A stretch of DNA of 42,366 nt from a virus: IMG/VR virus record IMGVR_UViG_3300013126_000075, positions 1-42,366 of that record. One strand, written 5' to 3'. Numbering within the stretch: the stretch's first letter is position 1; each line of letters starts with the position of its first letter. The notes beneath the pieces are model-generated. The model made no database searches. It was given only the letters and a program-made list of their open reading frames with translations, and was not told where the DNA came from. Position numbers and translations under genes: made by a program. Below are positions 1-37,880 of the stretch, in pieces.

Positions 1-176
1 CAGAGCCAGCACCAGCGGCTAAAGGTTTCGGTAAGAAAGCAGCTGCTGCCCCAGCTGCACAGGCAGCACCAGTAGAGAAAGAAGTAGAAGCAGCACCAGC
101 TGATGTACCATCTGCTACTTCACTGGCTGATGAAATCGCTGCACTGGTAGGTTCAGTAGGTGCTGATGATGCCTAA
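1..176 (+). CDS. Partial Ala/Pro-rich protein, C-terminal end
   Basis: Only the last ~57 codons lie in the window (frame starting at base 3, stop TAA at 174-176). The tail is rich in Ala, Pro, Lys and Glu and ends in an acidic stretch (GADDA). Low-complexity linkers ending in an acidic tip are typical of phage ssDNA-binding proteins and of some recombination or nuclease subunits. The downstream primase-helicase makes a replication role plausible, but no domain is visible here. The next gene starts inside its last codons, so the two are translationally coupled. Function unassigned; the reading frame itself is well supported by composition and overlap. Confidence 0.6.
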   Translation, partial: EPAPAAKGFGKKAAAAPAAQAAPVEKEVEAAPADVPSATSLADEIAALVGSVGADDA

Positions 177-450
177 TCCAATCGACTTCGCTAAAGTCGA
201 GGCACTTCGTAAACACATGATGCTTCGCAGACAGGATATGTCCGAACTGCTTGGCGTCACGAGGATGACTTACTTCCGATGGGTACAGGGCAGGGTTCCT
301 GAGGATAAGTATCTCGATAAAATTAGGCTTGTCTTAAAAAATCTTTTAGCTATCATGGTAGAAGATAAGTGGCCTACTCCAGATGTTATTATTCTGGATG
401 CGGAAACTAGACGAGCCAAATTAGACGAAGTGCTAAAGCGGTTTAACTGA
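166..450 (+). CDS. Small helix-turn-helix DNA-binding protein
   Basis: About 94 residues. The segment from MLRRQDMSELLGVTRMTYF to about residue 45 reads as a compact HTH of the Cro/CI/XRE type: a helix with LRRQDMSELLGV, a turn, then a recognition helix with TRMTYFRWVQG. The C-terminal half (LDKIRLVLKNLLAIM...) is helical and could dimerise. ATG at 166 or 169 is chosen over an upstream GTG at 160, because it overlaps the stop of the preceding gene in the usual coupled arrangement with AGG just upstream. It lies directly before the primase-helicase and is a candidate repressor or activator for the GGTTAC palindromes at 35258 and 36686. That link is inference only. Confidence 0.75.
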   Translation: MMPNPIDFAKVEALRKHMMLRRQDMSELLGVTRMTYFRWVQGRVPEDKYLDKIRLVLKNLLAIMVEDKWPTPDVIILDAETRRAKLDEVLKRFN

Positions 451-493: not shown

Positions 494-3349
494 ATGAACA
501 CGCTGGATTTCTTTCGGCGGGTACTCCCATCTGAGGGGCTATACTGTATAGCCAGCTTTACCAAAGACCATCCTGCACCAAGGCATGGTTTTTTCAACTC
601 AGTGGATGAACTCGCAAAGGTGGCCTTAGCACTTGACGCTAGGGGAAACACAACATACTACGCCATAGCTGCATATAACGATAAAAAACGTAAGCAGGAA
701 TTTGTTAGTAGCATCCGTGTAATCGCAATGGATGTAGATTGTGGCGAGAACAAACCATATCCATCATATAAGGAAGGCCTTGTCGCACTGGGTAAATTCG
801 TAGCTGACTTCGGTATGCCGAAGCCTATGATTGTATTCTCAGGCGGTGGTCTGCACGTATATTGGATACTAGAAGAAGCACTGGACTACGACACGTGGAA
901 GCCATTGGCAGAAGCGATGAAGGCCTTGGCCTTAAACAGTGGCTTTATGATTGACCCTGCTGTTACTGGTGATGCGGCACGAATACTACGACCAGTCGGC
1001 ACTACGAACAACAAGAACGGCAACACAGTTAAGTTACTGGTAGATGCACCAAATGTACCGCTTATCTACTTACGTTCCATACTCGAACAACATAGAGCAA
1101 TTCCAAAGGCTCAACCGGTGAGCCAGAGGTCAGCATCCAGCAGTACGTTGTTGGATGCTTTAGCAGTTAAGGTGGAGTTCAATCCATCCAGACCAGACAA
1201 AATCTATAGTGCTTGCGCTCAAGTGCAATGGGCTGTGGACAACCAAGATAAAGTAGAAGAACCTACTTGGTATGGTGTGTTAGGTATCGCTGCGTACTGT
1301 GAGAACCCTGAGTATATAGCCATTGAGTGGAGTAAGAACCACCCCGGCTTTGACCAGCAGAATACCATCGACAAGATGGCTCACTGGAAAGAACAGGTAT
1401 CAGGACCGACAACCTGCAAACGCTTTGCTGAACTCAACTCTGGCCTGTGTAAAGGCTGTAAATTCAAAGACAAGATTACCAGCCCTGCTATTCTCGGTGT
1501 GACCTACGTTGAAGCTGAGTCAGAGGCTGCAAAGTTTGACCCGATTGCTTCCGATGTGCCAATGCCTAGAGCGTTCAAGCGTACCACGGCAGGTATCGTA
1601 ATCAAGATTGAGGACAATGAAATACCAGTATGTTCGTTCGACATATATCCAGTAGGGTATGGCAAGGATGAGAGTCTTGGGTATGAAGTTGTACGATATA
1701 TGTGGAACAGACCACACGTTGGATGGACTGAGTTGGTTTTACGACAGGCCCATCTGGTCGATAACAGTAGTGAGTTTGGCACTACGATTGCAGACCAAGG
1801 CATCGTGCTTGAGTCAGCATCTAAGACAAAGAATTTTCAAATGCTACTACGTTCATACATGGAAGAATTAAAACAGAGGCGTGGTCTTACCAACCTGTAT
1901 TCGTCTATGGGCTGGAAGGATGGCTACAGTCAATTCATCATCGGCAACACATTATTACGCCGCCTGCCAGATGGTACGGTATCACAGGAGTCGGTAAACC
2001 TAGCATCATCCATAGCTAAAGTTGGCGACCAGATGTATGGTACAGCTGGCTCACGTGATGAGTGGGTGAAGTTTACCAAGATACTTGAAACAGCCAAGAT
2101 GACACCGCACAAGTTCTTGCTCGGCTTTAGTTTTGCCACACCGCTGCTCAAGATGACAGGCATTAAAGGTCTGACGTTATCCATCTACGGTGAAACTGGT
2201 GCGGGTAAAACTCTGGGTCAGTTGATGATGCAGTCGGTATGGGGTAATCCAGACCAGCTACACTTCGGTGGCAAGTTCACGCAGAATAGTATGTTTGCAA
2301 GGCTGTCTACTCACGGCAATCTACCCATGACTATTGATGAAACCACGATGATGGATGCCGATGAAGTGGGTGATATGTTGTACTGGGTAACACAGGGTAA
2401 GGATAAAGGCAGGTTAGGTAGAGCCGCCGAAGAAAAAGCAGCACGTGAGTTCCAGACTACTGCTACATTATCCACAAACAAATCCATACAAAGTATGCTC
2501 TACGCTGGTGGCAGTGCGTCAGATGCACAGCTTGCACGTTTGCTTGAGTTCCATATGCCAGTGCATCCGCTATTGAGTAAGGGTACGGCAGTTGGTCGTC
2601 AGCTGTATATGTTCCTCATGCACAACTATGGATGGGCAGGTCCGGAGTTCATTAAGAACGTAATGGAACTAGGCGAGGATAGGGTTAAGGCTATGGTACA
2701 ACACGCTATCGCTGAGTTCCCAACTAGGTATGGGGTAATATTCTCAGGTAACGAACGCTTCTGGGAAGTAGGTGTAGTACTTGCAGACTTGGGTAATCGA
2801 CTGGCTAAAGACTTCGGTTTAATCCAGTATGAAATTGAAGACGCAACCGAGTGGGCACTAGAAGAACTTGTAGGTATTAAGAAAAACGCACTGGCTAACC
2901 GTGTTGATGCGTTCGATTTACTTGGCGAGTTTATCAACGAGCATATGGACTCTGCTATTACCGTGATGCACACCGATGGTCAGAAACCAATGAAGGATAG
3001 CAGTAGACCATACGTTGCTGAGATTACAGTCCGTTATGACCTGTACCGTAAGACGTTCGATGGCAAGTTCACCAGCGGTACGGTAATGATTGAGCGAACT
3101 AAACTCAGACGTTGGTTGGCTAAACGTGGTATTGACTACAAAGGATTTCTCAACGAGTTTGATGCTGAGAACATCAATGCTACACCTAAGTCACAGAAGG
3201 CATACTTCGGTAAAGATGTTGGTATTAAAATCCCACAGTGCTATGTGGTTGGTATAAACCTAAACCACCCACGACTACAAGGTATCTTGGATGATGCCGA
3301 GCAATCAGTAGGCGATTTAAGTTTAGGTCAGATGAAGGTAGTTAGTTAG
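494..3349 (+). CDS. Primase-helicase (AEP primase + DUF927-type ATPase)
   Basis: 951 residues. The N-terminal domain carries archaeo-eukaryotic primase motifs: DVD at 80-82 (metal binding), SGGGLHVYW at 116-124 and DAARILRPVGTTNNK at 160-174. A PriCT-like linker follows with a probable zinc site formed by C241, C308, C319 and C322. The C-terminal part (~residues 360-950) is a DUF927-type helicase with Walker A GETGAGKT (566-573) and Walker B PMTIDE (611-616). The protein probably primes and unwinds phage DNA as one polypeptide, like primase-helicases of plasmids and phages. GGGGATAAT precedes the ATG. Its stop overlaps the stop of the convergent giant virion gene by 8 bases. Domain identification is confident; exact biochemical activity is by family. 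Confidence 0.88.
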   Translation: MNTLDFFRRVLPSEGLYCIASFTKDHPAPRHGFFNSVDELAKVALALDARGNTTYYAIAAYNDKKRKQEFVSSIRVIAMDVDCGENKPYPSYKEGLVALGKFVADFGMPKPMIVFSGGGLHVYWILEEALDYDTWKPLAEAMKALALNSGFMIDPAVTGDAARILRPVGTTNNKNGNTVKLLVDAPNVPLIYLRSILEQHRAIPKAQPVSQRSASSSTLLDALAVKVEFNPSRPDKIYSACAQVQWAVDNQDKVEEPTWYGVLGIAAYCENPEYIAIEWSKNHPGFDQQNTIDKMAHWKEQVSGPTTCKRFAELNSGLCKGCKFKDKITSPAILGVTYVEAESEAAKFDPIASDVPMPRAFKRTTAGIVIKIEDNEIPVCSFDIYPVGYGKDESLGYEVVRYMWNRPHVGWTELVLRQAHLVDNSSEFGTTIADQGIVLESASKTKNFQMLLRSYMEELKQRRGLTNLYSSMGWKDGYSQFIIGNTLLRRLPDGTVSQESVNLASSIAKVGDQMYGTAGSRDEWVKFTKILETAKMTPHKFLLGFSFATPLLKMTGIKGLTLSIYGETGAGKTLGQLMMQSVWGNPDQLHFGGKFTQNSMFARLSTHGNLPMTIDETTMMDADEVGDMLYWVTQGKDKGRLGRAAEEKAAREFQTTATLSTNKSIQSMLYAGGSASDAQLARLLEFHMPVHPLLSKGTAVGRQLYMFLMHNYGWAGPEFIKNVMELGEDRVKAMVQHAIAEFPTRYGVIFSGNERFWEVGVVLADLGNRLAKDFGLIQYEIEDATEWALEELVGIKKNALANRVDAFDLLGEFINEHMDSAITVMHTDGQKPMKDSSRPYVAEITVRYDLYRKTFDGKFTSGTVMIERTKLRRWLAKRGIDYKGFLNEFDAENINATPKSQKAYFGKDVGIKIPQCYVVGINLNHPRLQGILDDAEQSVGDLSLGQMKVVS

Positions 3350-6300
3350 AAATCTCGAACCCGTACAAGGCGGCTAGTTCTTCGGCCTCTTGTCTACCTG
3401 CTCTGGCAGATGACTTGAGTGCCCTAGCTGCCAGTGGTTTAGTAGCTTCTTTATACGCTCTGTTCACACCACCACTGAAATTTTTAATCTCAAGGCGTGT
3501 ACCTTTAACATCCTCATTCCAATCACGTACATAAGCTTGGACATTTGCAAGGCGGTCTTGGTCGCCATTGATTCTTGCTGCAACAGCCTCACGTATAGCT
3601 TCACTTCTAATCATCTGACCATAGCGTTGCTCTTGGTCATCGGCCATCATCCAATCCATCTGCACCTGAGCACGACTTGGGTAGAAGCCCACTGCCTTAC
3701 CGATAACCTCCCAAGCAGTTACATCTTGAGAAACCACATAGCCTTTACTATCTAGGATTGCACCTGTATTGGCGTACTTCCAAGCTTCAGTGGCGTTCTT
3801 AATAGCCCTAGCAGGGAAGTCTGTAAGTATCTTGCTGAATGGTTGTCTGCCTGTAATCACTGAAGGTATAGTTCCGGCTGCCCAGTCAAACGCACCAATC
3901 ATAAATGAGGTTGGCGCACCTGCCAAGTTCTCTACTTCACGCAATTTTTCCTGTGCAGAAGCAGATGGTTTAAACAAGGCAGTGCCCGGTACAATATCGC
4001 CAAGTCCCAAACGATTTGAGAATGACCATCCAGTGGTAGCATCCAGTAAACCACGCAACATGACAGGGCTAAGTGCCGCACCAAGTTCCGGGCCAAAGGC
4101 ATCACGAGTTAATCGGGCAAATTCTTTCTCTACTGAGCCGGACTGCAAGCCCATGCGCTGCATTAAACCGTCAATAATATCCAGTAAGTCGTCAGCACCC
4201 GGCAGGCCACGCAAACCAGACAGTAAAATCAGTGAACCCAGCATGATAATCTTACCGTTGCGGTCCATATTTTTGAGCAGCTGTAACATAATGATTGGAT
4301 ACTGCTTGTACATATAGACGAATGACATCAGGCCGCCACGGAAGAACGCTGGTCGGTTGTACTGTGAGTAGTCACCTTGTGTAGCATCGAGGGCTTTGTC
4401 AGCAGCTATACGTGCAGCATCGTCAGCCTGACCGGGGGTTTTGCCAGCAGCAATCTGGCGTTCATACTCACCACGGTAGGCAGCAAGCACAGTTACACGG
4501 CGGTTGAACTGCTCTGAATAACTGAATGGGAACATCCATGTCTGAACAAATTTCTGGAAGGTTGGGTTACCCATAAAGCCTTTGCGCCCGCGCACTGTAC
4601 CGGTTAGGGCGTTGAACTGGGCAGCATCCAGACGCTGTTCTTCCGTCAGGTCTTTTAAGAATCGTAACTCAGCACCAGTGATACCATCTTTGTTCTCATT
4701 AGCACCAGTGCGCTCAAGTTCTGCAAGCTGGGCGTCCAAGAAGTCCACATTGATGTACTTAGGATTGGCGGCAGCGATAGCAAACTTGGACAGTAATGCA
4801 CCAGCACGACCAGCACCAAGGCCAAGGCCAAAGTTATTCTCTGGGTTATATGATGACAAGTAAGCCCATGAGTTGGTAGGCAGTGACAGCATCTGTGTAA
4901 TACCTGTGGCGATAGAACCACCAAGCTGGGCAACCGCAGCCCAAGTACGTGCGCTCAGTGAGAACTGGTTGTTATTCCAGAAGTCATCAGCAAACACAAT
5001 GTCCCCAGTAGAGTCTTGCCAATCAAGCTGTGATTTGGCGCGTTCTTTATACCAGTTACCGCGCAGTACGTTAGTGTCGCCGACTTTCTCATTGGCTTTT
5101 TCGAAGTAGTATTTTTCTTGGTAGTACTCACGTGCTGCCAGTTCCTTGGCTGGGCCAGTAGCAGCTTCCCACTTGGCTTTAAGTTCTGCCAGTCGGTCAC
5201 GGTTACCAAACCAGTTGTTGTTATCTTCCAGTACCCCGTCAAACTGGTGGCGGAATGTCTTGTTAGCTGCAACATAAGCCTGCTGCTCAAGGAAGGCGGA
5301 TGAACTACGGACAACATCTTTGTCCCAGCCCGGTACACCAGCACGTTGTAAGTTAGCACGAGCCCTAGAGTTTTGTGCGGTAACTTTCTTAATCAGAATC
5401 TCACGGTCAGCTACTGGCATCTGTACACCCAAGCGACTAAGAGCATACATCACATCATCATAGTGCATGATGTCTACCAATGCAGGTGTAGTTTCTACAT
5501 CACTGACGATGGCTTTCAAGTACACTGAAACCACGCGGTTGTTGGCATCTCGCATGGTGTATTCGCCAGTAAGTAAGCCGTTTAACTCCTCAGCGTATCC
5601 AATAGACTCGTCTTTTTTCTCAGTCATAAACAGCGGTAAGGAATCCTGCTGCCCTTGATGCAGCTTAACTGGCTCCTCGTTACCATCAGCGTCAATGGTG
5701 TATGCTTGCACACGAACTTGGAACTTGCCTCGGCGAGATAGGGGGGCATAGCCACCAGCAATACTGCGCTTGGCATATAGTGAGTCATCGTTCAATGATA
5801 TGGTGAACGTACTGCGTTCCTCCATGGCGTAAGCCACAGGCCAGATTGATGAATCGGTGATGGCGTCTGTATCAGGGTCAATCTTTACACGCAGCTTATC
5901 CCGTAGCCCAATAACCAAAGTCTTAACTTCGTCAGGGGTGTAGTTAGGCAGCTTGGTTGCGAAATCATTAAGTGCGTTGTCGTTGTAGAATGACCGAGCA
6001 AAGCGCATTTCAGCATAATCCACAGCGTCAGCTTGAGATACTTCGTTCATCTTGAATCGGTTGTTCTCGTAGGACGAGCCTTCCATAGCGATACGGTCAT
6101 GCTCATCAGATACAGCAGTAATAAAGCGGCGTTCCGCCTCAGTCAAAGCTTTACTAAAGGCACGGTCAATACCACGATTAAGTACACGTTCTTGCTCGTA
6201 CATGGCTCCGTCATACTTGGCAGCCAATACATCCATCTGGCTTTCGTTGATAGCTTCACGGAACTGTAAGTACATCTTGTACTGGATACTATCTTCGGTC

Positions 6301-9300
6301 ATATCTTTAACCCATGCGAAGTCAGCCATGTCTTTGGTGTTCACATAGTTAGGTGCGCTGTATGTGTTGCTGTCGATTTGTTTCTTATATGACAGCTTGG
6401 TGCTACGCAGCATGGAATCGAATTTATCTTCCGTCTTGTCGTATGTAGCCTGCAATGAGGTCTTTACCTTGGTATCTTTGGCTGTGTCAATCTTACGCTG
6501 GATACGGTCAAGGTCACGTTTCTTGCGTGCTTCTATTACTGCAACTTCTTGGTCACGCTCAGACTCCAGCTGGGCTTTATACTCAGCTGTCATTGGTTTC
6601 TCAGTGTAACCCGTCTGAACATCAAAGCCTTTTTTGAAGTCGGCTACAGATAAAGTACCAGCTTTAGACAGTGACTCAAACGCATCTGGGTTCATAACGA
6701 TTTGACCCAGTTCAGTGGAGTATGCGATAGGGGCTTCAAACTTAGATTGCAGTTGTGAATCAGAGAACTGGTTACCTTTCAGTAGTGAACCAAGAGCCAG
6801 TAGTTGTCCAGCCTGTTGTGATTCCATAGGTTCAGGACCGTCACCGAACATCAGGAACTTAGCTTCGTGTGCAAGCTGTGTTAGCTTAGAGTATTTTGTC
6901 TTGAGTTTCTGCTGCATCTCACCTTTACGTTGGGTAAGACTGAAAACCAGTGCCGCACCCTTACTATCACGAGCCATGTCATCTTGAGTACGCAGAAGCC
7001 CAAAGAAGTTCTTCATGGTGTCCTTGGCGTTTACTTTTGTACCGTCATATTTACGGCGTAGGTCTGCAACTTTGGCATCGTTATTGTTCAACCAGTTCAT
7101 AATGCCTTCTAAACCACCGGTTGAAGTGACGTTTTGATTCATGGCGTTCATGGCAGCAGTTTGCTGGCCTTGTGGCGCGAGTTGGGCAAATCTTAATACC
7201 TCAACATCAGACCGGTCGAGTTCTCGCATCGTAGACGCTTCCTGCAAGAGAGTTTTTAGGTTGACCTCTGAACGACCCACACCTTGACGTACATACTTGC
7301 GTGATAGACTTACTAAGTAGCGAGCAGCATCATCGTTGAACTTGAATCCTAATTTATTCAGCTGGTTTTTAAGCCATGTCCAGAATCGCATCATGGTTGA
7401 TGAGTCGATTGCAGCTGCGCGGTCAGACAAAACTTCTTCCACGGCTTCCAAGAACGGAATATTCTGTACTTCTGACAGAACTACTGCTGCGTTGTTAACC
7501 TGCACATCAGAGTCAGCGATTGACTGTAAGATTTTATTAAGCTGTGCGTCACTGAACAAACCACGGAAACCTACGTGCCCCAGAATCTCATGAGCCATGA
7601 TAAAGTTGGCGTGTTTCTCACCATTGATATTGTCAGCAAACAGAACGACAGTGTTTCCCCATGCCATACCAGCGGCGTTGACAGCCTCGAAGTCCCCGGC
7701 CTTACGAGCGGCGGCAGCTTCTCTAAACAACTTGGGATTTGTCTTACGCATATCATCCAGATTCTGGAACACATGAACCTTAGGTTTACGAGCCAGCTTG
7801 GATACGAACTTAGTTGCCATCAGGCGCAATGGACCTGCTTTCATTGGTTGGCTTGGCTTTTCATCAGCGCGGTAGTAGTTAGCTAGGTCACCATACACGT
7901 TATCATCCTCACGGATGCCTGACTCTTGCTGGAATTTAAGTTCCAGTGCAGCACGCTGGTCTTCCTCTGCATACTCCAGTTCAAGGTCGCGCAATACTTT
8001 ACGCGATTCTGCATGAACCTTAGCAAATTCTTCACGCGACATCTTGGCTTCTTCCACGCTGGACAGAACATACCTACTTGTGCCCGGCTTCTGCACTACG
8101 ATTGGTTTACCATCTTTAAAGAAATCCTCGATAGACCCGCGCTCGCCGACTACGAACGCAGTATCCTCAACTTGTTTATACAAAGCTTCCGCCTTGCGAG
8201 CTAAGGCTTTACGGTCAAATTCACCTTCTCGGTTATTGATAATAGTAGCAAGTTGTATTGCTGCACGGTCAATTTCCTCAACGGTATCATCAGCTTCCTT
8301 AACTGCCAGCGTAACTTCCTCATCTTTCTTAGCAGATACACGCACACCAATCTTAGGGTCGTTGAGCAAATTGTAATCGTTCAGCAGGGTGTACAGGCGT
8401 GAGCGAGGGTTGATGCTTGGCATCGTGATTGCAAACGCACGTAAGGCTTTAGTGAACTCAGCCACAGGGATAGGCTCTGCACCGAACAGGAACTCATTGG
8501 CTGTCTTGAATAACTTAGTAGCTTGGTTTGTTTCAGTAACGAATACATCCACGATGTCGTTCATTGCAACTTCGTACTCTTTAGGTGAGCCGGTAGTTTC
8601 CACAGTTTCAATAGCAGCCTCAAGTGCTTGTTGCGCGGCTAATGTTTCAGTTGATGCCTCACCTGACTTCTTCTCCTTCTCCTTCTCCTGTGCTGGAGAT
8701 GTGACCTGAGCGACTAACGATGCTAAAGATGTTTGTGGTACTTGAGCCGGTGCAGCTTGAGCTTTAGGTGCTTTAAGTCGTTGCTCACCTACCGGTGCGG
8801 CAGGTGTAGCCTTAGTCGTTTCAACTTTAGATTCTTTCTTCAGTGCTGCTTTGCCAGTTGGTTTAGGTGGTGTCGGCTCTGGTGGTTTAATACCACCGAT
8901 ACGGTCAGCCTCAGCCATCGAAGCTTTATTGGCTTCGACTAAATCAGTCCACTCTTTACGCTGTGCATCAGATAGCTTTTCCCATGTCGGTGCTTTGGGG
9001 TCGCGCTTGTCACGCCACTGAGTACGGGCTTCACGCTCCACGGACAACCGTGCTGCCTTTGCCTGCTGAGCAGCCTTTACATCTTGTAAACCTTTTCCTT
9101 GCTTTTCCTGCGTGGCTTTCTCAGTCAGTTTCTTGACAGCCTTAGATACTGTAACCGCATTGACTGGTCTACCTGTTGGTGGAATCTGACTGCCACCAAC
9201 CTCTGGAATACTACGGACTGGGCTCTTAACACCGGCAGAACGCAAGGCAGCTATAGTGGGTTCACCATCTTGGGTAAACAGTGACGTTTGTTTGGTGCGG

Positions 9301-11366
9301 CGCAGGTCAACTTTAGGTGCAGCCATGACGACAGGTGCGCCCTGTTGTTGGGGTGCAGGAATCCCACGGCGAATACGCTCACGCATTGATGGTTTAGGTG
9401 CTTGACCTCTACCAAACAGTTGTAGTTGCTGCGGGTTCGGCGCACGAGTTTCACGCATAGGTAGCTGAGCTACGGGTTCAGGCGCAGGTTGTGCCAAGTC
9501 TAACTGACGTTGGTTCTGTGCCACGATTGCAAGGCGATTGAGTTCTGCCTGACGTTGCTGTTCCTGTGCAAGTTGTTGCTGCTCGATAGCCTTAGCCACC
9601 TCTGCCTGCTGCATAGCAAGTTGCATCTGCGAAACCGGCGCATTGACTGGTGTAGGTGCAGGCGGCGGAGGCGCAAACTGTAGCTGTCCTTGGCGGGGGT
9701 CAGTATTAGGTTGCTCTCCTAGGTATGGTATCCCTAATGGATTCTCAAGAGTACTGCGTTGCTGTAGCTCAGCAATGGTCGCACCTTCAGGTCCAAAGAT
9801 GTCGAGCACACCCTGTTGTCCAAACTGACCCGGTGCAACTTCACCTGAGTAAATTGTATCACTAGGGCGTGATGGTCTGGTTGTACCATCAGGGGCAGTA
9901 ATCATGTCAGGGCGACCCATCATGCCGCCGGTAGTGACAGGGCCTTGAGGTACACCCGCTGGTGGTTCAGTAATAGTAAGTGCAGTGCTTTGTGGTGCAG
10001 GCTCTGGTGATTGCTCTGGGTTTAGTAAGTTAGTAGGCTGGTCACCCACTGGAGTCTTACCCTTACGCAGGTTAGCGATACCACCTAATGGACTACCTAC
10101 ACCAAAGCCTGCGGCAAATGCTTCGAGAAAACGCTTCTGCGCTTCAGGGCTAGTCAAGTCCTGACCAGATAACCCCATGACAAGAGCTTCCTGCCCAAGT
10201 TCAGTAGCACCCTCAAGTGGCCCACCAACGGCAGCTCCAACAACACCGCGTTTGAGTAATTCCCCAGCACGCTTAGCACCTGTACCTAACGCAGTAGCAC
10301 CTTGGATGGATGCCAAGTCTGTACCCGTACCCTTGATACCGCCAAAGATGCGGGATGCTAAAACAAATTCCGGTAAAGTTTCCAGTGCGGCGTATGGAAT
10401 AGACCCCAGCAGCGCACTAAGTCTAGCCCCTGCATCATCAGCAGTTGCCCCTTGCTCTCGTTGCTCACCGTAAATATCTGCCGCACCTGTAGCAATATTA
10501 CTACCATAAGACGCAGCCAATGCCCCGGCAGTACCAGCGGCATTACGCAACAATTTGGTTTCTACTTCAGTAAGGGCTTCACCAGCGGCTTTCTTCTTGG
10601 CAGCTGCCATGATGGATTGCTTAACAGCAGACTTACCTAGGATACCAGCAGCACCAGCATAAAGACCAGCGAGCGGGCCACCAGCGGCAGTACCAGCACC
10701 GAAGCCTGCAAGCCCAACAGCCATTGACTCAAGCAGGTTAGGACCTTGCTGCGCCAAGTTAGCCACGAACCAATCGACAGCATCGCCGCCTGACTCGATA
10801 TTTGAGAACTCACGTTGGAACGGCGTAGTCTTGTTGAGGTCTTTGATTTGCTGGTCGACTATAGATTGACCAGTTTGCTCAGCACCAAGTAACTGCATAC
10901 CCCTGCCCGCAAGCAGTTGCATATTGTCTACGCCAATACCAAAGTTCTTCTTAGCTAGACGACCAAGGCTAGGGTTTCGGATAGACTCTAGGAATTGCCC
11001 ATATGCGTTCTGGTCTATCGGAGTCCAGTTACCAGTGGTAGGTAAGCCAACAGATGGATAGGAAAGGTACTGCTCAGACTGTAAAGCAGTAGTAGCGTCA
11101 TCAGCGTCAAAAGTAATACCGTTAACATACAGTTTGTTTTCCGTAGGATTAAAGGCAATAGCCGGAGCCTGCTTCAACTCCGGCATTGTGAACTGACTTT
11201 GCTTAACGATTTGCTGCCCGACAGCAGCCATGTCTGCTAAAGATGGGGCTAACCCATTCAACCCTATGTCTGACGTAGGGCTGTTAATCGCATATGGATT
11301 AGCCTCAGGCCCTAGGTTAGATTTCGCCAGAAACGGGTCAGCAAACGAAAGACCTTCTTTAGCCAT
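3342..11366 (-). CDS. Giant virion/ejection polypeptide (PLxRFG and LPD38-like domains)
   Basis: 2674 residues, the last gene of the late block. Residues ~200-400 contain Gly/Ala-rich hydrophobic helices that could insert into membrane, ending in an APLEGATE-type segment. Residues ~440-1000 are Pro/Gln/Lys-rich low-complexity linker. AHEILGH (H1259, E1260, H1264) resembles a zincin helix but with HExxxH spacing. PLSRRGKF at 1875-1882 matches the PLxRFG signature of giant phage polyproteins. Residues ~2200-2450 (WMFPFSYSEQFNRR..., TQGDYSQYNRP..., hydrophobic IIMLGSLILLSG) resemble the large polyvalent protein-associated domain LPD38. By position it corresponds to T7 gp16, an internal protein ejected with the DNA. 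It could also act on host targets after ejection. Domain names are from memory of the families. Confidence 0.8.
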   Translation of the reverse strand: MAKEGLSFADPFLAKSNLGPEANPYAINSPTSDIGLNGLAPSLADMAAVGQQIVKQSQFTMPELKQAPAIAFNPTENKLYVNGITFDADDATTALQSEQYLSYPSVGLPTTGNWTPIDQNAYGQFLESIRNPSLGRLAKKNFGIGVDNMQLLAGRGMQLLGAEQTGQSIVDQQIKDLNKTTPFQREFSNIESGGDAVDWFVANLAQQGPNLLESMAVGLAGFGAGTAAGGPLAGLYAGAAGILGKSAVKQSIMAAAKKKAAGEALTEVETKLLRNAAGTAGALAASYGSNIATGAADIYGEQREQGATADDAGARLSALLGSIPYAALETLPEFVLASRIFGGIKGTGTDLASIQGATALGTGAKRAGELLKRGVVGAAVGGPLEGATELGQEALVMGLSGQDLTSPEAQKRFLEAFAAGFGVGSPLGGIANLRKGKTPVGDQPTNLLNPEQSPEPAPQSTALTITEPPAGVPQGPVTTGGMMGRPDMITAPDGTTRPSRPSDTIYSGEVAPGQFGQQGVLDIFGPEGATIAELQQRSTLENPLGIPYLGEQPNTDPRQGQLQFAPPPPAPTPVNAPVSQMQLAMQQAEVAKAIEQQQLAQEQQRQAELNRLAIVAQNQRQLDLAQPAPEPVAQLPMRETRAPNPQQLQLFGRGQAPKPSMRERIRRGIPAPQQQGAPVVMAAPKVDLRRTKQTSLFTQDGEPTIAALRSAGVKSPVRSIPEVGGSQIPPTGRPVNAVTVSKAVKKLTEKATQEKQGKGLQDVKAAQQAKAARLSVEREARTQWRDKRDPKAPTWEKLSDAQRKEWTDLVEANKASMAEADRIGGIKPPEPTPPKPTGKAALKKESKVETTKATPAAPVGEQRLKAPKAQAAPAQVPQTSLASLVAQVTSPAQEKEKEKKSGEASTETLAAQQALEAAIETVETTGSPKEYEVAMNDIVDVFVTETNQATKLFKTANEFLFGAEPIPVAEFTKALRAFAITMPSINPRSRLYTLLNDYNLLNDPKIGVRVSAKKDEEVTLAVKEADDTVEEIDRAAIQLATIINNREGEFDRKALARKAEALYKQVEDTAFVVGERGSIEDFFKDGKPIVVQKPGTSRYVLSSVEEAKMSREEFAKVHAESRKVLRDLELEYAEEDQRAALELKFQQESGIREDDNVYGDLANYYRADEKPSQPMKAGPLRLMATKFVSKLARKPKVHVFQNLDDMRKTNPKLFREAAAARKAGDFEAVNAAGMAWGNTVVLFADNINGEKHANFIMAHEILGHVGFRGLFSDAQLNKILQSIADSDVQVNNAAVVLSEVQNIPFLEAVEEVLSDRAAAIDSSTMMRFWTWLKNQLNKLGFKFNDDAARYLVSLSRKYVRQGVGRSEVNLKTLLQEASTMRELDRSDVEVLRFAQLAPQGQQTAAMNAMNQNVTSTGGLEGIMNWLNNNDAKVADLRRKYDGTKVNAKDTMKNFFGLLRTQDDMARDSKGAALVFSLTQRKGEMQQKLKTKYSKLTQLAHEAKFLMFGDGPEPMESQQAGQLLALGSLLKGNQFSDSQLQSKFEAPIAYSTELGQIVMNPDAFESLSKAGTLSVADFKKGFDVQTGYTEKPMTAEYKAQLESERDQEVAVIEARKKRDLDRIQRKIDTAKDTKVKTSLQATYDKTEDKFDSMLRSTKLSYKKQIDSNTYSAPNYVNTKDMADFAWVKDMTEDSIQYKMYLQFREAINESQMDVLAAKYDGAMYEQERVLNRGIDRAFSKALTEAERRFITAVSDEHDRIAMEGSSYENNRFKMNEVSQADAVDYAEMRFARSFYNDNALNDFATKLPNYTPDEVKTLVIGLRDKLRVKIDPDTDAITDSSIWPVAYAMEERSTFTISLNDDSLYAKRSIAGGYAPLSRRGKFQVRVQAYTIDADGNEEPVKLHQGQQDSLPLFMTEKKDESIGYAEELNGLLTGEYTMRDANNRVVSVYLKAIVSDVETTPALVDIMHYDDVMYALSRLGVQMPVADREILIKKVTAQNSRARANLQRAGVPGWDKDVVRSSSAFLEQQAYVAANKTFRHQFDGVLEDNNNWFGNRDRLAELKAKWEAATGPAKELAAREYYQEKYYFEKANEKVGDTNVLRGNWYKERAKSQLDWQDSTGDIVFADDFWNNNQFSLSARTWAAVAQLGGSIATGITQMLSLPTNSWAYLSSYNPENNFGLGLGAGRAGALLSKFAIAAANPKYINVDFLDAQLAELERTGANENKDGITGAELRFLKDLTEEQRLDAAQFNALTGTVRGRKGFMGNPTFQKFVQTWMFPFSYSEQFNRRVTVLAAYRGEYERQIAAGKTPGQADDAARIAADKALDATQGDYSQYNRPAFFRGGLMSFVYMYKQYPIIMLQLLKNMDRNGKIIMLGSLILLSGLRGLPGADDLLDIIDGLMQRMGLQSGSVEKEFARLTRDAFGPELGAALSPVMLRGLLDATTGWSFSNRLGLGDIVPGTALFKPSASAQEKLREVENLAGAPTSFMIGAFDWAAGTIPSVITGRQPFSKILTDFPARAIKNATEAWKYANTGAILDSKGYVVSQDVTAWEVIGKAVGFYPSRAQVQMDWMMADDQEQRYGQMIRSEAIREAVAARINGDQDRLANVQAYVRDWNEDVKGTRLEIKNFSGGVNRAYKEATKPLAARALKSSARAGRQEAEELAALYGFEISN

Positions 11367-19320: not shown

Positions 19321-19393
19321 TTTGAGCCTTCCTCCCCTTAATGGCTGTCAGAATTTCATCCAACAGCCTAAGGATAATCTCAACAACCTTCAT
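19202..19393 (-). CDS. Lysis-cassette protein, i-spanin-position
   Basis: 63 residues. Start MKVVEIILRLLDEILTAIKGRKAQNERTK gives a short amphipathic/hydrophobic helix followed by a charged helix, then NWFRDHFGSG and a polar tail. The gene overlaps the holin-like gene by 4 bases and contains the lipoprotein gene start in another frame, which is the Rz/Rz1 arrangement. It lacks a clear full-length transmembrane helix, so it may be a degenerate i-spanin or another membrane-peripheral partner. The ERxxxxxxPxxWFxxHFG pattern recurs in small phage proteins of unknown role. Confidence 0.55.
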   Translation of the reverse strand: MKVVEIILRLLDEILTAIKGRKAQNERTKLEQTPDNWFRDHFGSGVQSVDAGKTDKADTGDKA

Positions 19394-19584
19394 GAACCAA
19401 TACGTTTAGTAGCTCTAACACGGCCCCAGAGGGCTAAGCCATCGCCTACAAACGAAGCAATAGCCTCAGCCAAACCACCAGTATCACCAAGGTCATACCC
19501 TTTAATGTAGGCAATCTTACCGACTACGGATAGGGCAATCCCCCAAAACGTAACAGAACTCAATAAACCTTTTGCTTCTTCCAT
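19390..19584 (-). CDS. Putative holin-like small membrane protein
   Basis: 64 residues. Two hydrophobic segments are visible: VTFWGIALSVVGKIAYIKGY (~10-29) and LAEAIASFVGDGLALWGRV (~38-56). The basic C-terminus is RATKRIGS. The pattern of a FWG helix followed by a GLAxWGRVRATK helix is common in small phage membrane proteins next to endolysins. It lies immediately downstream of the M15 endolysin gene (3-base gap) and overlaps the following gene by 4 bases. Role as holin is inferred from topology and position. Confidence 0.6.
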   Translation of the reverse strand: MEEAKGLLSSVTFWGIALSVVGKIAYIKGYDLGDTGGLAEAIASFVGDGLALWGRVRATKRIGS

Positions 19585-19587
19585 GAC

Positions 19588-20037
19588 TTACTCCTTTTTA
19601 CTAACGTCACCAACGCTAAACTTGCCAGTCCATGTACCGTATAGGAATACTTTTTGTGGCAACCCAAACCCTACTCGCCAATCCACATGACAAAAACCGT
19701 CATGAAGCCCTACACTAAAGCCTAGGGAGTAAGCGAGTCTGGCAAACTTCAACTGCCTATCGGCAGTCCACCCACGCCATTTGACATCTGCTGCGGCTGT
19801 ACCTAACGTGTTATGCTTGGGGTTCACTGTCAGATGCAACGAACTTGGATGCCCCTTCTCAGCTGCATTATGTGCTGGACTCCGACACACACTATTAAGC
19901 GTTAGGGGCTGCCCCCACTTCAATCGTAGGAATGGTAAGGCAGCAGCGAACTGCGGGTCTAGTACTATTACCCCGGACCCCTTACATTGTAATTCACTAG
20001 CCACAAAATACGGTAGCTCTTTGGTCCATGCTTTCAT
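19588..20037 (-). CDS. Endolysin, M15-family (VanY/L-Ala-D-Glu-type) peptidase
   Basis: 149 residues from the ATG at 20037 (MKAWTKELPYF), preferred over an upstream start because GAGGT precedes it and it begins 3 bases after the previous stop. Zinc-ligand motifs of the M15_3 family are present: SSLH (H68), AAAD (D84) after a short insertion, and FCHVDW (H117). The enzyme would cut peptide crosslinks or stems in peptidoglycan at lysis. It has no signal peptide, so it needs a holin for release. Neighbours are a coiled-coil/TM protein upstream and a holin-like protein downstream. High confidence in family; exact bond cleaved unknown. Confidence 0.85.
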   Translation of the reverse strand: MKAWTKELPYFVASELQCKGSGVIVLDPQFAAALPFLRLKWGQPLTLNSVCRSPAHNAAEKGHPSSLHLTVNPKHNTLGTAAADVKWRGWTADRQLKFARLAYSLGFSVGLHDGFCHVDWRVGFGLPQKVFLYGTWTGKFSVGDVSKKE

Positions 20038-20039
20038 AC

Positions 20040-20348
20040 CTACCTCGATGCAAAAAACGCTGCGGATAATGCCCCAGCAATTAGTATCATGATTACTTTG
20101 TCTGTCCAAGTAGACGACCCACTATGCGTAGCTTGGACTGTTTCTACTGTAGCGACACGGCGTTCGATGGCGGCCTGTTCTTCATCGTATTTATCCATAC
20201 GCTTGAACAGTGTAACCATTCGTTCTTCCATTCTAGCAAGCGAAACGATAGCCTCACTCATCTTGTCTAGTTTACCTTCGATACGACTAAGGCGGTCTGC
20301 ATTGTCACTGTCATCTCGCCTATCTTGGTTTGCTCGTCTGTCTTGCAT
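20040..20348 (-). CDS. Coiled-coil protein with C-terminal TM (XhlA-like)
   Basis: 102 residues. The N-terminus is highly charged (MQDRRANQDRRDDSDN). Residues ~18-75 are a long coiled coil (RLSRIEGKLDKMSEAIVSL...). The C-terminus holds a single hydrophobic helix, KVIMILIAGALSAAFFA. This topology matches XhlA-like and other holin-associated membrane proteins found next to phage endolysins. It ends 3 bases upstream of the endolysin start. It may act as holin, antiholin or membrane anchor; the sequence does not decide. Confidence 0.6.
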   Translation of the reverse strand: MQDRRANQDRRDDSDNADRLSRIEGKLDKMSEAIVSLARMEERMVTLFKRMDKYDEEQAAIERRVATVETVQATHSGSSTWTDKVIMILIAGALSAAFFASR

Positions 20349-34746: not shown

Positions 34747-35212
34747 CTTTTTCCTCCACTTGCTGCGGTTCGTGCTCGATTATGGCAGTTTCTACCTGCT
34801 GCCCACCCAGATTTATGGTGATTTTAACGCCACCAGCGTTGTTGCCGCCATCATTGTCAGTATTCTTCGGCTCCAGTCCCGCCCATTTGACCGTTGACTT
34901 GATTAAATCTGCCTTCACAGCGGCGGATACAGACGGGTCGTGTATCAATAACCAAGATGTTGTCAGTAGTTCTTCCGATTGGGCCCGTGCTTTTAGCCGG
35001 AAGGTCAGCCCTTTCTCTCGGATTTCATCGCGGTAGGACTCCACGCGCTTGAGGAAGACTGGGTCTTGGTTGTAGCCAAGGATGTCTTGGGTGGTTATGT
35101 TGTGCCTGACGGTTACCTCGGTCAGGGTTTCGCCACTTCCTTCGAGTGTGAGTGCGATGTCAAACGCTAGGCGGTCTGACCATTTGGTGTGATGTAACGG
35201 TAATGTGTCCAT
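34718..35212 (-). CDS. Terminase small subunit-like protein
   Basis: 164 residues from ATG at 35212 (MDTLPLHHTKWSDRLAFDIAL); a longer open frame upstream lacks a plausible start. A helical DNA-binding-type N-terminus with TTQDILGYNQDPVFLKRV, a helical middle (EKGLTFRLKARAQSEELLTTSWLLIHD) and an acidic C-terminus (EHEPQQVEEKDVADAEYSE) match small terminases placed before TerL. It would recognise the packaging site and regulate TerL. No Shine-Dalgarno site is visible and the predicted transcription start is only ~4 bases upstream, so translation may be leaderless. Confidence 0.7.
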   Translation of the reverse strand: MDTLPLHHTKWSDRLAFDIALTLEGSGETLTEVTVRHNITTQDILGYNQDPVFLKRVESYRDEIREKGLTFRLKARAQSEELLTTSWLLIHDPSVSAAVKADLIKSTVKWAGLEPKNTDNDGGNNAGGVKITINLGGQQVETAIIEHEPQQVEEKDVADAEYSE

Positions 35213-35222
35213 AGTGAGAGTC

Positions 35223-35251
35223 AGCTTAGTGGAGGCGGGGAAGTTTGTCAA
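35223..35251 (-). promoter_or_regulatory. Late promoter for the terminase transcript
   Basis: On the minus strand TTGACA (35251-35246) is a perfect -35; a 17-base spacer leads to TAAGCT (35228-35223), a -10 with the key T1, A2 and T6. The predicted start is close to the TerS ATG. A palindrome at 35258-35275 lies just upstream, in the position of an activator or repressor site. Confidence 0.6.
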
Positions 35252-35257
35252 GTAAAT

Positions 35258-35275
35258 GGTTACGTGAGTGTAACC
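35258..35275. promoter_or_regulatory. Operator-like palindrome GGTTAC-N6-GTAACC
   Basis: A perfect 6+6 inverted repeat with a 6-base spacer, seven bases upstream of the -35 of the late promoter. The same arrangement (one mismatch) recurs at 36686-36703, and the half-site recurs many times between 36367 and 37017. It looks like the binding site of a dimeric regulator, activator or repressor not determined. Confidence 0.65.
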
Positions 35276-35325
35276 GATGGTTTTATGAGGTCTTATTTTA
35301 AGCGGTTTACTTATACAGGGGGGGC

Positions 35326-35385
35326 TGCTGGCTTGCCAGTCCATGTGGGTAGGGGTACACCAGCCAGCAACGGCAAGCTGGCAAG
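35326..35385. repeat. Overlapping inverted repeats in divergent control region
   Basis: Arm A TGCTGGCT (35326-35333) pairs with AGCCAGCA (35362-35369); arm B CTTGCCAG (35332-35339) pairs with CTGGCAAG (35378-35385). The pairings cross, so they are mutually exclusive or form a pseudoknot. Lies between the late promoter and the leader of the first plus-strand gene. Read on the minus strand the right edge contains GGTTCGAGTC, a tRNA T-arm-like string, but no cloverleaf could be built. Confidence 0.45.
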
Positions 35386-35483
35386 ACTCGAACCGCCAAC
35401 AAACCCGCACCAAATGGGCACTTTTTGTCATTTTTCATGGTTATGGCAATCTGAAATTGTGCTGATGCAGCACTGATTTACAA

Positions 35484-35494
35484 GTTCTTTAACA
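35484..35494 (+). promoter_or_regulatory. boxA-like antitermination element
   Basis: GTTCTTTAACA matches the rRNA-operon boxA core GCTCTTTAACA at 10 of 11 positions. It lies 19 bases before the ATG of the first plus-strand gene, between a small dyad (GTGCT-N5-AGCAC, 35459-35473) and the ribosome binding site TAGGAG. It could recruit Nus factors to the early transcript, or be chance. Confidence 0.4.
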
Positions 35495-35512
35495 ACAATT
35501 AGGAGATTTAAA

Positions 35513-35776
35513 ATGGCTCAACAAGCTACTGTTAAGAGGTCTATCGCCCCTGTTACTTTCACTATCGAAGTAACGGCCACGAGGGTCAATGAAAACGGTA
35601 CATTCTCTGGCATCACTGCCAAGATTGTTAAACAACCGAAAGGTTGCGAGTTCATGACCAGTGTACCACCAATGGCAGGCGGTGCGGTTTACTTCAAGAC
35701 ACAATCGCTGGAAGGCATCACGCTAGTCGAAGGTGATAGCCAGAAAGCACCAGCCGAGAAGAAAAAATTGTTCTAA
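35513..35776 (+). CDS. Small beta-rich protein, paralogue A
   Basis: 87 residues. The sequence (KRSIAPVTFTIEVTATRVNENGTFSG..., SVPPMAGGAVYFKTQSLEGITLVEGD) is strongly beta-patterned with a short charged tail ending KKKLF. It is clearly paralogous to the protein at 37176-37445: the blocks KxSIxPVTFxxEVTATxVNENGTFSG, PPxAGGAxYxK and LxGxxxVEG are shared. TAGGAG precedes its ATG and a terminator follows. Both copies flank the repeat-rich noncoding region. Not recognised; a small nucleic-acid-binding fold or structural role is possible. Confidence 0.75.
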   Translation: MAQQATVKRSIAPVTFTIEVTATRVNENGTFSGITAKIVKQPKGCEFMTSVPPMAGGAVYFKTQSLEGITLVEGDSQKAPAEKKKLF

Positions 35777-35786
35777 TCGGTAACAG

Positions 35787-35816
35787 ACTAGGCAGGGCAA
35801 CCTGCCTAGTTTTCTC
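35787..35816 (+). terminator. Rho-independent terminator after paralogue A
   Basis: A perfect 10-bp stem ACTAGGCAGG / CCTGCCTAGT with GCAA loop, followed by TTTCTCT. Begins 10 bases after the stop codon. Confidence 0.8.
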
Positions 35817-35839
35817 TAATCAAGCTAGGAGCGAAAGCA

Positions 35840-36016
35840 ATGAAAGCTAGAAAACCACGTAAGTATGAACCAATGCGGTACATAGTCAAATGGATTGAAG
35901 GCAATATGATGTACTTCAGAGCGTTCAAACGCGATTCATCTGCCATGAAGTTTCAAGATTACCTGATTGAAGAATTAGGTATTCCAATGGTAAATGTTCG
36001 AGTAACTTTAAAATAA
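35840..36016 (+). CDS. Small basic protein
   Basis: 58 residues: MKARKPRKYEPMRYIVKWIEGNMMYFRAFKRDSSAMKFQDY, ending NVRVTLK. Basic N-terminus, then a beta/alpha pattern. AGGAG lies nine bases upstream of the ATG. It is followed by an 8-bp GAAA-loop hairpin. Unknown function; basic charge and size allow nucleic-acid binding. The clear ribosome binding site and spacing between terminator and hairpin support expression. Confidence 0.65.
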   Translation: MKARKPRKYEPMRYIVKWIEGNMMYFRAFKRDSSAMKFQDYLIEELGIPMVNVRVTLK

Positions 36017-36021
36017 CGAGG

Positions 36022-36041
36022 CAGGCAGGGAAACCTGCCTG
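36022..36041 (+). other. GAAA tetraloop hairpin
   Basis: A perfect 8-bp stem CAGGCAGG / CCTGCCTG with GAAA loop, 5 bases after a stop codon, without a T-run. Its stem sequence is almost that of the terminator at 35787, suggesting a common origin. Confidence 0.6.
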
Positions 36042-36047
36042 AATGAT

Positions 36048-36191
36048 ATGAATAAATTTATGATTATGTACACCACAGCAATACACACAACAGACTCAAC
36101 AATCGTGAAGGGATACTTCGGCTTACTGAAATTCAGGTTCAAGCTGTGGGTATGCAAGTGTTACGACATCAAGGTAATACCAATCGAGTAG
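36048..36191 (+). CDS. Possible 47-residue protein
   Basis: MNKFMIMYTTAIHTTDSTIVKGYFGLLKFRFKLWVCKCYD...IPIE. Basic and aromatic in its second half, with CKC. No Shine-Dalgarno site; the ATG is 6 bases after a stable hairpin. A good terminator begins 8 bases after the stop, which marks a gene end. Weakly supported, function unknown. Confidence 0.4.
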   Translation: MNKFMIMYTTAIHTTDSTIVKGYFGLLKFRFKLWVCKCYDIKVIPIE

Positions 36192-36198
36192 GAAACAG

Positions 36199-36224
36199 CC
36201 CGGCGAAAGCCGGGTTTTATTTTG
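36199..36224 (+). terminator. Rho-independent terminator
   Basis: Stem CCCGGC / GCCGGG with GAAA loop (36199-36214), followed by TTTTATTTTG. Closes the small-gene cluster before the gene-free region. Confidence 0.8.
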
Positions 36225-36446
36225 TCTGTCGTTTATGTATAGATTTTGCTGTTTTCTTATCAGGTTATGGATGACGTGTATAGTTTTACTGTTTTTGTGT
36301 GTATAAAACAAACCATACGCCGGGGGGTGCAGGCATCAAATAGCGACACATCTGACAGTATCGCGCGGGGCGGTTACGTTTTTTAGCGGTAAAAGTGGGG
36401 CGGTTACATGGCAAAACGTAACATTACACACAAAACTATGTAACCG

Positions 36447-36502
36447 GTTACATTGATTGCTTAAAAAATAGACAAAAGTTACATTGATTGCTTAAAAAAT
36501 AG
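36447..36502. repeat. 25-bp direct repeat, two copies
   Basis: The segment starting GTTACATTGATTGCTTAAAA is repeated exactly at 36447-36471 and 36478-36502 (31-base offset, about three helical turns). The first copy begins inside the palindrome at 36439-36452. Confidence 0.8.
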
Positions 36503-36622
36503 GCAATAATCTAAGAAAATAATCTAAATAATCTAAAAATTAGGTTAGTGGTTACTCACATTAGATTATTTTGGCAAATGTAACCACCGCGCCAGTATTG
36601 GGTTTCAGCCATATATATATAT

Positions 36623-36778
36623 AATAATCTAAATAATCTAAATAATCTATGGTTTTTTAACACACACCCGGTAGTAAAATGATGAGGTTACATGAATGTA
36701 ACTGCGTAACCATCTACCTATCTAACTCCCCCCTGTCTTACACTTTTATGCGTAGATTATTAGATTATTTAGATTATT
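36623..36778. repeat. Triple AATAATCTAA blocks in inverted orientation
   Basis: Three AATAATCTAA-type units with a 9-base period (36623-36650) face three inverted units (36752-36778), giving a near-perfect ~27-bp inverted repeat with ~100 bases between. The spacer contains GGTTAC-N6-GTAACT at 36686-36703. The outer flanks also carry GGGTTTCAG (36600-36608) and CTGAAACCC (36783-36791). Confidence 0.75.
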
Positions 36779-37109
36779 GCCTCTGAAACCCAAGCCCAGC
36801 AAGGAGGTTACAATAATCTAAATTTCATGTAACCGATACCTCAAGTAAAAAAGTTTAGATTTTTGCAGATTATTCTAGTACTTTTTGTGTAACCGGTTAC
36901 ATTATGTTATGGCAATAACCCTTGTAGCTTACTCCGTGGTTACAAACCCACTTCGTGGTGTTACACGACAACCTTCATTTACAAATCAATGCGGTTACAT
37001 AGCTTAAAAACGTAACCAAATACATTCAAATACAATTACAAAGTCAGGCGACCTCGCTAAGTTGTTGATTTTTAAACTTTTTGTTCGGATTTCGGTTCGT
37101 GCTAATCTG

Positions 37110-37145
37110 AAACCTGACCAAACGGTCTTGGGTTTTATTATATTT
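37110..37145 (+). terminator. Leader hairpin with T-rich tail (attenuator-like)
   Basis: GACC-AAAC-GGTC core (37116-37127), extended by AAACC / GGTTT with a small internal loop, followed by TTTTATTATATTTATTTTTTATT. It lies upstream of the ATG at 37176, so it would terminate or attenuate a transcript entering from the repeat region. Confidence 0.45.
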
Positions 37146-37175
37146 ATTTTTTATTACACTTTAGGAGTAGTTATT

Positions 37176-37445
37176 ATGGCTATTACAGCTACGTTGAAGA
37201 AGTCTATCAAACCAGTTACATTTTACCTTGAAGTTACAGCTACCAAAGTCAATGAGAACGGTACATTCAGTGGCTTAACTGTGCAGAAAGTATCATCATC
37301 CGTTAAGTCCAATGAAACAATCAGGGCTAGTATACCACCTCAAGCTGGTGGTGCTATGTACCTCAAATGCGATGACCTTAAAGGCCTTGAGTTCGTAGAA
37401 GGTACACTGACTGGTGCTACCGTTGAGCAGAAGGAACTGTTTTAA
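37176..37445 (+). CDS. Small beta-rich protein, paralogue B
   Basis: 89 residues from ATG 37176 (MAITATLKKSIKPVTFYLEV), chosen over an upstream start at 37062 because AGGAG lies 8-12 bases before it and because the paralogue begins at the same point. It shares the core blocks of the protein at 35513-35776 and ends similarly (EQKELF). Beta-rich, no catalytic motif. First gene of the right-hand early operon. The pair of paralogues on either side of the iteron-like region suggests a functional link to it, which is inference. Confidence 0.75.
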   Translation: MAITATLKKSIKPVTFYLEVTATKVNENGTFSGLTVQKVSSSVKSNETIRASIPPQAGGAMYLKCDDLKGLEFVEGTLTGATVEQKELF

Positions 37446-37468
37446 CCCAACCACATCCACTATGGAGG

Positions 37469-37488
37469 AGGCGGTAGCAATACCGCCT
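37469..37488 (+). other. GCAA tetraloop hairpin
   Basis: Perfect 8-bp stem AGGCGGTA / TACCGCCT with GCAA loop; no T-run. The GGAGG just before and within its 5' arm could be masked from ribosomes. Lies between paralogue B and the next gene. Confidence 0.6.
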
Positions 37489-37496
37489 ATGAACCT

Positions 37497-37880
37497 ATGA
37501 CATTAAAGAAGGTAAGATGCGTGAACTTTATTGAGCATTTAGAACGCATTAACAACCGTGATAGTAGTCGGTATGTATCACACCTCAAAGAATTTATGGG
37601 TAGCAATATGTATGCCATGCATCTGCATGGTATTAATAAGCACACTTATGTGGTGTATAGCTACGGCCCACATTGGCCGATGTGGGTATATGACTATGGC
37701 ACTAGAGAGTGGTACGGCATGGCTGACAAGTTCAGTCGTACTACCAGCAAACAGCAAGGGCAATCACACCCTGATGTCTATGACGATGAAGTTCAATGGT
37801 ATGGTAAAGACATGATGGTAAAGATTGCCGTACATGGTTTCAACGGTGCATTTGCAGACAGAATGGGGGTAGCGGCATGA
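37497..37880 (+). CDS. Unknown early protein, aromatic-rich
   Basis: 127 residues (or 119 from GTG 37521, which has AAGAAGG upstream and may be the real start). HLERINNRDSSRYVSHLKEFM, HTYVVYSYGPHWPMWVYDYGTREWYGMADKFSRTTSKQQGQ and a C-terminal helix are visible. The Tyr/Trp-rich middle resembles a small beta-sheet fold; the SRTTSKQQGQSHP run is polar. Its stop overlaps the next ATG (ATGA). Not recognised. Confidence 0.65.
   Translation: MTLKKVRCVNFIEHLERINNRDSSRYVSHLKEFMGSNMYAMHLHGINKHTYVVYSYGPHWPMWVYDYGTREWYGMADKFSRTTSKQQGQSHPDVYDDEVQWYGKDMMVKIAVHGFNGAFADRMGVAA

Follow-up and report, generated by a model that had tools for sequence, protein, structure and literature searches.

Candidate iteron replication origin with interleaved regulator sites in an uncultured phage and a wide group of its relatives

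Among described replication systems, the closest to the locus considered here are SaPIbov1 and SCCmec, elements that themselves encode the helicase acting at their origin: the DUF927 protein Cch is related to SaPIbov1 Rep, and the C-terminal domain of SaPI Rep binds iteron origins apparently as two hexamers, which are thought to load at the SaPI origin (PMC7581432, on which our SaPI comparison rests). In the iteron plasmids pSC101, R6K, P1, and RK2, the repeats are mostly 17-22 bp long, a winged-helix Rep (Rep_3-like, two such domains) binds them, and DnaA boxes lie close by. These origins combine direct repeats with an AT-rich region, and IHF assists several iteron origins (PMC4980987). The stoperators of mostly temperate mycobacteriophages are many short sites of one family, spread genome-wide, whose letters vary between phage groups. 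P4 alpha (ori/crr) is a fused primase-helicase that binds short iterons, with a primase and a helicase of families other than those of the phage described below. In the papers searched, we found no description of the replication origin of this phage group.

The window, i.e., the whole stretch analysed, comprises 42.4 kb (positions 1-42,366 of IMG/VR virus record IMGVR_UViG_3300013126_000075). It is a circularly permuted fragment with respect to G001 (54.7 kb), a close relative whose primase is 98% identical, and an early-region stretch of ~12 kb encoding PolA, a PDDEXK nuclease, VRR-NUC, and an SNF2 helicase is absent between its two ends; this PolA/nuclease/helicase set is carried by relatives. 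Its minus strand holds the late genes (portal, terminase, capsid) and its plus strand the early genes, with the gap under study located in the early arm ~1 kb from the divergent early/late junction. Judged by its genes, the phage looks lytic, and the relatives look like free-living lytic phages. We found no close cultured relative of the group, and a host search of bacterial genomes with the ATPase as the query returned nothing. A 2674-aa virion protein (3342-11366), with no Pfam match and only a match to phrog_11358, could carry an enzyme domain.

The preliminary description of this DNA had singled out nearly 1 kb without a gene, holding two interleaved repeat families. The gap indeed measures 984 bp, between a gene ending at 36191 and one starting at 37176, and has neither a conserved ORF nor a Shine-Dalgarno-preceded ORF of at least 20 codons. 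The region lies where it had been placed, but its bounds (36340-37020) are better drawn from 36313, at a conserved CCATACGCCGGGGGG box, to 37070, at a match to the IHF consensus. The features of the region, its surroundings, and the two proteins proposed to act on it are:

36192..37175, no strand: gene-free candidate origin/control region; equivalent gap in 53 relatives
36197..36216, plus: hairpin CCCGGCGAAAGCCGGG with a T run, an intrinsic terminator for the small genes upstream; many relatives have a similar one there
36313..36327, plus: conserved box CCATACGYCGGGGGG opening the region, with few changes; region start in nearly all relatives
36372..37017, no strand: family A; GGTTAC half-sites, 15 over the two strands, of which four make up the two full 14-bp palindromes
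36447..36506, plus: 29-nt direct repeat (25 bp exact), tandem, period 31
36505..36537, plus: upstream B run, AATAATCTA at 36505, 36518, and 36527; relatives too have an upstream B run
36623..36649, plus: B triplet, three AATAATCTA with 9-bp period, preceded by TATATATATA
36753..36778, minus: opposed B triplet, 8/9-bp period
36813..36820, plus: lone B site directly next to an A site, GGTTACAATAATCTAA; conserved in L078 and L079
37058..37070, minus: AATCAACAACTTA, a match to the IHF consensus WATCAANNNNTTR
37176..37445, plus: small downstream protein, beta-rich in a low-confidence model; paralogue of 35513-35776
35258..35275, no strand: two A sites in inverted orientation, GGTTACGTGAGTGTAACC, at the divergent early/late junction
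160..450, plus: HTH protein (HTH_3, Pfam PF01381), candidate A-binding factor; HTH residues vary with the A motif
494..3349, plus: PrimPol-DUF927 helicase, candidate initiator for B, by family, profile, and fold matches

Where a dozen or more GGTTAC/GTAACC half-sites had been noted, we count 15 in 36340-37020 against 0.58 expected under a first-order Markov model; these are 15 of the 41 in the whole window and fall in 1.6% of its length. The longer word GGTTACA occurs 11 times in the region and nine times in the remaining 41 kb. The two copies of a 14-bp palindrome, TGTAACCGGTTACA, are found at 36439-36452 and 36888-36901 and nowhere else in the window, and the exact 25-bp direct repeat, GTTACATTGATTGCTTAAAAAATAG, at 36447 and 36478, proves to be part of a 29-nt repeat that is 97% identical. 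As for the reported ten or so further units arranged as opposing triplets, all nine copies of AATAATCTAA in the window lie inside the region, the 8-mer ATAATCTA has 11 copies there and two elsewhere, and the triplets are present, with AATAATCTA repeated on the plus strand and its complement on the minus strand. Neither outcome that would have refuted the observation occurred: whole-window counts and the Markov expectation show the motifs to be less common outside the region, and related phages have conserved the repeats. The original observation is confirmed and is stronger than was reported.

Three proteins (primase, ATPase, and the small one encoded downstream) served as queries in gathering relatives, yielding 155 loci. 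The primase is present in 15 of the 46 records having the ATPase locus and complete in 13, the primase-less records being mostly short fragments. The set for the repeat region comprises 54 loci including the window (23 after near-duplicates were taken out), which have the equivalent gap in the same gene context. Family A is represented by 384 sites in the 54 loci against 46 expected, and by 193 in the 23 non-redundant loci against 12 in reversed sequence, an excess that is descriptive because the A patterns were picked after the loci had been seen. Depending on the group, it reads GGTTACA (window, L078, L079), ACTTTACA, ACTTGACA, or CTATACA. Some copies of ACTTTACA outside the region directly precede the Shine-Dalgarno sequences of genes, and for this reason we do not take the dispersed copies as a genome-wide regulatory element. 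Family B (core WATCTA) has 548 sites in the 54 loci against 68 expected from shuffles, reversed-sequence and reversed-pattern controls being unusable since ATCTA reads the same backwards; its group-specific forms are TAATCTA, CAATCTA, CTATCTA, and GTATCTA. Most loci show B repeats of 9-bp period on one strand, a spacer of ~90-110 bp, and B repeats of 9-bp period on the other strand, the opposed runs lying 105-140 bp apart start to start; the exceptions (L097, L101, L149, and others) have few or no opposed tandem B runs. In 13 of 15 genome-size records, tandem B pairs are essentially confined to a single place. The layout is mostly kept across dozens of relatives, and the repeat letters differ between groups.

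A third word, AATCAANNNCTTA, is more constant than A or B and fits the IHF consensus, which was not fitted to the loci. This consensus is matched 56 times in the 54 loci against 3.5 expected from shuffles (16-fold), and 26 times against 3 in the 23 non-redundant loci; its density in the region is ~17 times that in the rest of the same loci (0.06 per 750 bp), and in 42 of the 54 a match lies within the first 750 bp of the region. The sole match of the window stands 280 bp past the core. The least stable 100 bp of the locus falls in the gap in 23 of 26 loci tested, and just 0.04% of the 100-bp stretches of the window are less stable than the weakest of the region. The cumulative GC skew of the window reaches its minimum at ~34.5-37.5 kb, a position confounded by the switch of coding strand ~1 kb away.

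The candidate initiator, a DUF927 protein of 951 aa, combines in one chain a PrimPol with a helicase whose relatives are SaPIbov1 Rep and SCCmec Cch. In its structural model (pLDDT 73, pTM 0.41), residues 1-198 match the PrimPol domain 6zp9 (Z 19.5, rmsd 2.4 over 174), and residues 356-941 match the fold of Cch (5dgk; Z 25.4, 482 aligned, rmsd 8.2) and of SaPIbov1 Rep (8tch; Z 23.4, 469 aligned, rmsd 9.5); the high rmsd to both suggests that the domain packing of the model is uncertain. A sequence profile of the helicase domain agrees with the fold match (8tch, E 1.2e-13; 5dgk, 2e-11).

The phage resembles SaPIbov1 and SCCmec in that the element itself encodes the helicase, whose fold is common to all three through to the C-terminal part, and it shares with the SaPI origin short iterons in non-coding DNA, here as two opposed sets flanking a spacer. 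It differs in that the helicase is fused to a PrimPol, the iterons are 9-bp units with a second site family and IHF-consensus matches interleaved, and the region would serve a whole phage genome rather than an island. Furthermore, whereas the SaPI and SCCmec origins directly follow rep, in G001 the region is at ~23.6 kb and the primase at 40.9-43.7 kb, ~17 kb downstream. By analogy, the region may work like a SaPI-type origin, but it is not classed as one because the candidate origin is not adjacent to the initiator gene. Direct repeats and an AT-rich region are shared with the iteron plasmids; in contrast to these, the phage has 9-bp iterons, a chance-level number of DnaA boxes in the region, and a DUF927 helicase-primase as its proposed initiator. 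The A sites recall stoperators in being many, short, and of group-specific wording, but they are clustered, and the parts read revealed no integrase.

A comparable region occurs in one cultured phage and, more weakly, in a second. Pseudomonas phage Rollin, a cultured P. aeruginosa phage, has a 26.6% identical primase and an unannotated AT-rich repeat region at 1-1450 (L174). There, TTTGCATAC stands three times at period 9 next to an AT tract, palindromes like AAAAGGTAGCAAGTTACTACCTTTT recur several times as a second family, and one site fits the IHF consensus; the region is analogous to that of the window, with different repeat letters and the same 9-bp period. In Rhizobium phage RHph_TM27A, positions 19356-20124 form an AT-rich gap that carries two oppositely oriented IHF-consensus sites and has no 9-bp tandem array. 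Rollin keeps the period and the IHF site, and RHph_TM27A the IHF sites without the array; it thus appears that geometry and IHF sites persist in Rollin where the words have changed, and less clearly so in RHph_TM27A.

As for the A sites, all 13 further genomes examined encode, like the window, an HTH protein directly upstream of the primase. The version of the GGTTACA clade carries T22R, S33T, R47E, and N50Y at positions conserved in other clades, and the A sites at the divergent junction switch letters in step with those in the region. We considered this co-change as proof of binding and rejected it as such: 5 of 37 conserved columns switched, a fraction that is not unique (13.1% in a 341-aa protein, 10.2% in the primase), and since the GGTTACA clade is one lineage, the co-change amounts to one evolutionary event that is only suggestive of the HTH protein as the predicted A binder. 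An alternative candidate is a 95-aa protein that contains two HTH-like stretches and is the product of a second HTH gene (L003:1194-1478); of the clades compared, the GGTTACA clade alone has this gene, and other clades have a different HTH gene nearby. A regulatory role beside that of an origin is likely, because the A family recurs at the divergent early/late junction 1 kb away.

That junction holds a conserved non-coding element (35185-35400) shared by dozens of relatives, in the order A site(s), TTTTTTGGGTCTTGCTTTAAGCGGTTTACYATATA, a run of 6-7 G, and GTCCATGTACCCCCC; it looks like a control element, possibly with a hairpin. The region is flanked by paralogous small proteins (35513-35776 and 37176-37445), both ending in K-x-L-F. 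We considered them as DNA-binding proteins and set this aside, as they have no family match and only a low-confidence beta-rich model. In several subclades, the gene after the region encodes a different protein.

The preliminary description had proposed a replication origin or a multi-site control region, and the evidence supports this and leans to the origin, on account of the opposed 9-bp iterons, the IHF-consensus sites, the least stable DNA, the GC-skew minimum, and the relative of SaPIbov1 Rep. We propose that this phage and a wide group of relatives probably start replication in the region, which would be an iteron origin with the A sites serving a regulator. The proposal builds on motif clustering, conservation, geometry, consensus matches, and protein homology, from which we infer every binding event and the origin activity. 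The PrimPol-helicase would recognise the 9-bp B iterons, whose two opposed sets would place two helicase rings head to head, flanking the ~100-bp spacer. Host IHF would bend the DNA, the AT-rich tract would melt, and the PrimPol-helicase would load itself, its PrimPol domain priming both strands for the phage PolA. A second factor from the phage would occupy the interleaved A sites. The likeliest one is the HTH protein whose gene immediately precedes that of the primase, and by also binding the divergent junction it may couple early transcription to replication.

Several observations count against an origin. The initiator gene is distant, the A sites at the junction fit a transcriptional role, and the GC-skew signal is confounded by the strand switch; opposed tandem B runs are few or absent in some relatives, the only IHF match of the window is outside the core, and the gap of RHph_TM27A lacks the 9-bp array. 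It is conceivable, if unlikely, that the region is for transcription control only, with phage regulators on A and B timing the downstream early genes, IHF being architectural, and replication starting elsewhere. The recurrence of A sites at the junction with letters changing together with those of the region, the position of the region before the early operon, and the variation of HTH recognition residues with A would all fit this; however, promoter-like sites in 35200-37500 show no excess (7 against 6.2 in shuffles), tandem B pairs are not found at the junction, and origins typically show what is seen here, opposed arrays of period 9, DNA of the lowest stability, and an initiator of the Rep type encoded in the same genome.

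Lambda cosB combines repeated sites with IHF, and a packaging start (cos/pac), with repeated terminase-binding sites and an IHF bend, could be envisaged 1-2 kb from the head of the late operon. We consider this very improbable: relative to the junction, the sites fall among the early genes and precede them; the helicase has an iteron binder as its best homologue; and the near-complete contigs, which are assemblies, start and end at varying distances from the region and so give no sign of a fixed end there. Arrays of short sites on both strands could likewise suit a partition or centromere-like site, but the proteins scanned include no ParA/ParB-like gene, and the lack of an integrase in the parts read and the lytic-looking gene content make this scarcely credible. 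Just as hard to credit is a structured RNA in which the opposed B runs, complementary by construction, form a long stem once transcribed. Isolated B sites with no pairing partner, present on both strands, switch from TAATCTA to CTATCTA along with the runs, a change that pairing would not require, and there is no Rfam match; a tRNA scan likewise found nothing.

Beyond the probable origin, we tentatively suggest, as a reading that falls somewhat short of being probable, a two-protein rewritable origin, in which a fixed scaffold (GC box, IHF sites, opposed iterons of 9-bp period, and AT tract) is retained and the A and B words are replaced wholesale between groups, giving each group a private origin specificity, with B for the self-loading PrimPol-helicase and A for the HTH regulator. 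A candidate origin and its likely initiator are here predicted together for a wide, mostly uncultured group of aquatic and environmental phages. The scaffold appears to extend to the cultured phage Rollin and, more weakly, to RHph_TM27A, and the prediction is therefore testable at once. It would extend the self-loading initiator design of SaPI and SCCmec to apparently free-living lytic phages and, if the origin reading holds, shows the words of an origin changing while its geometry stays.
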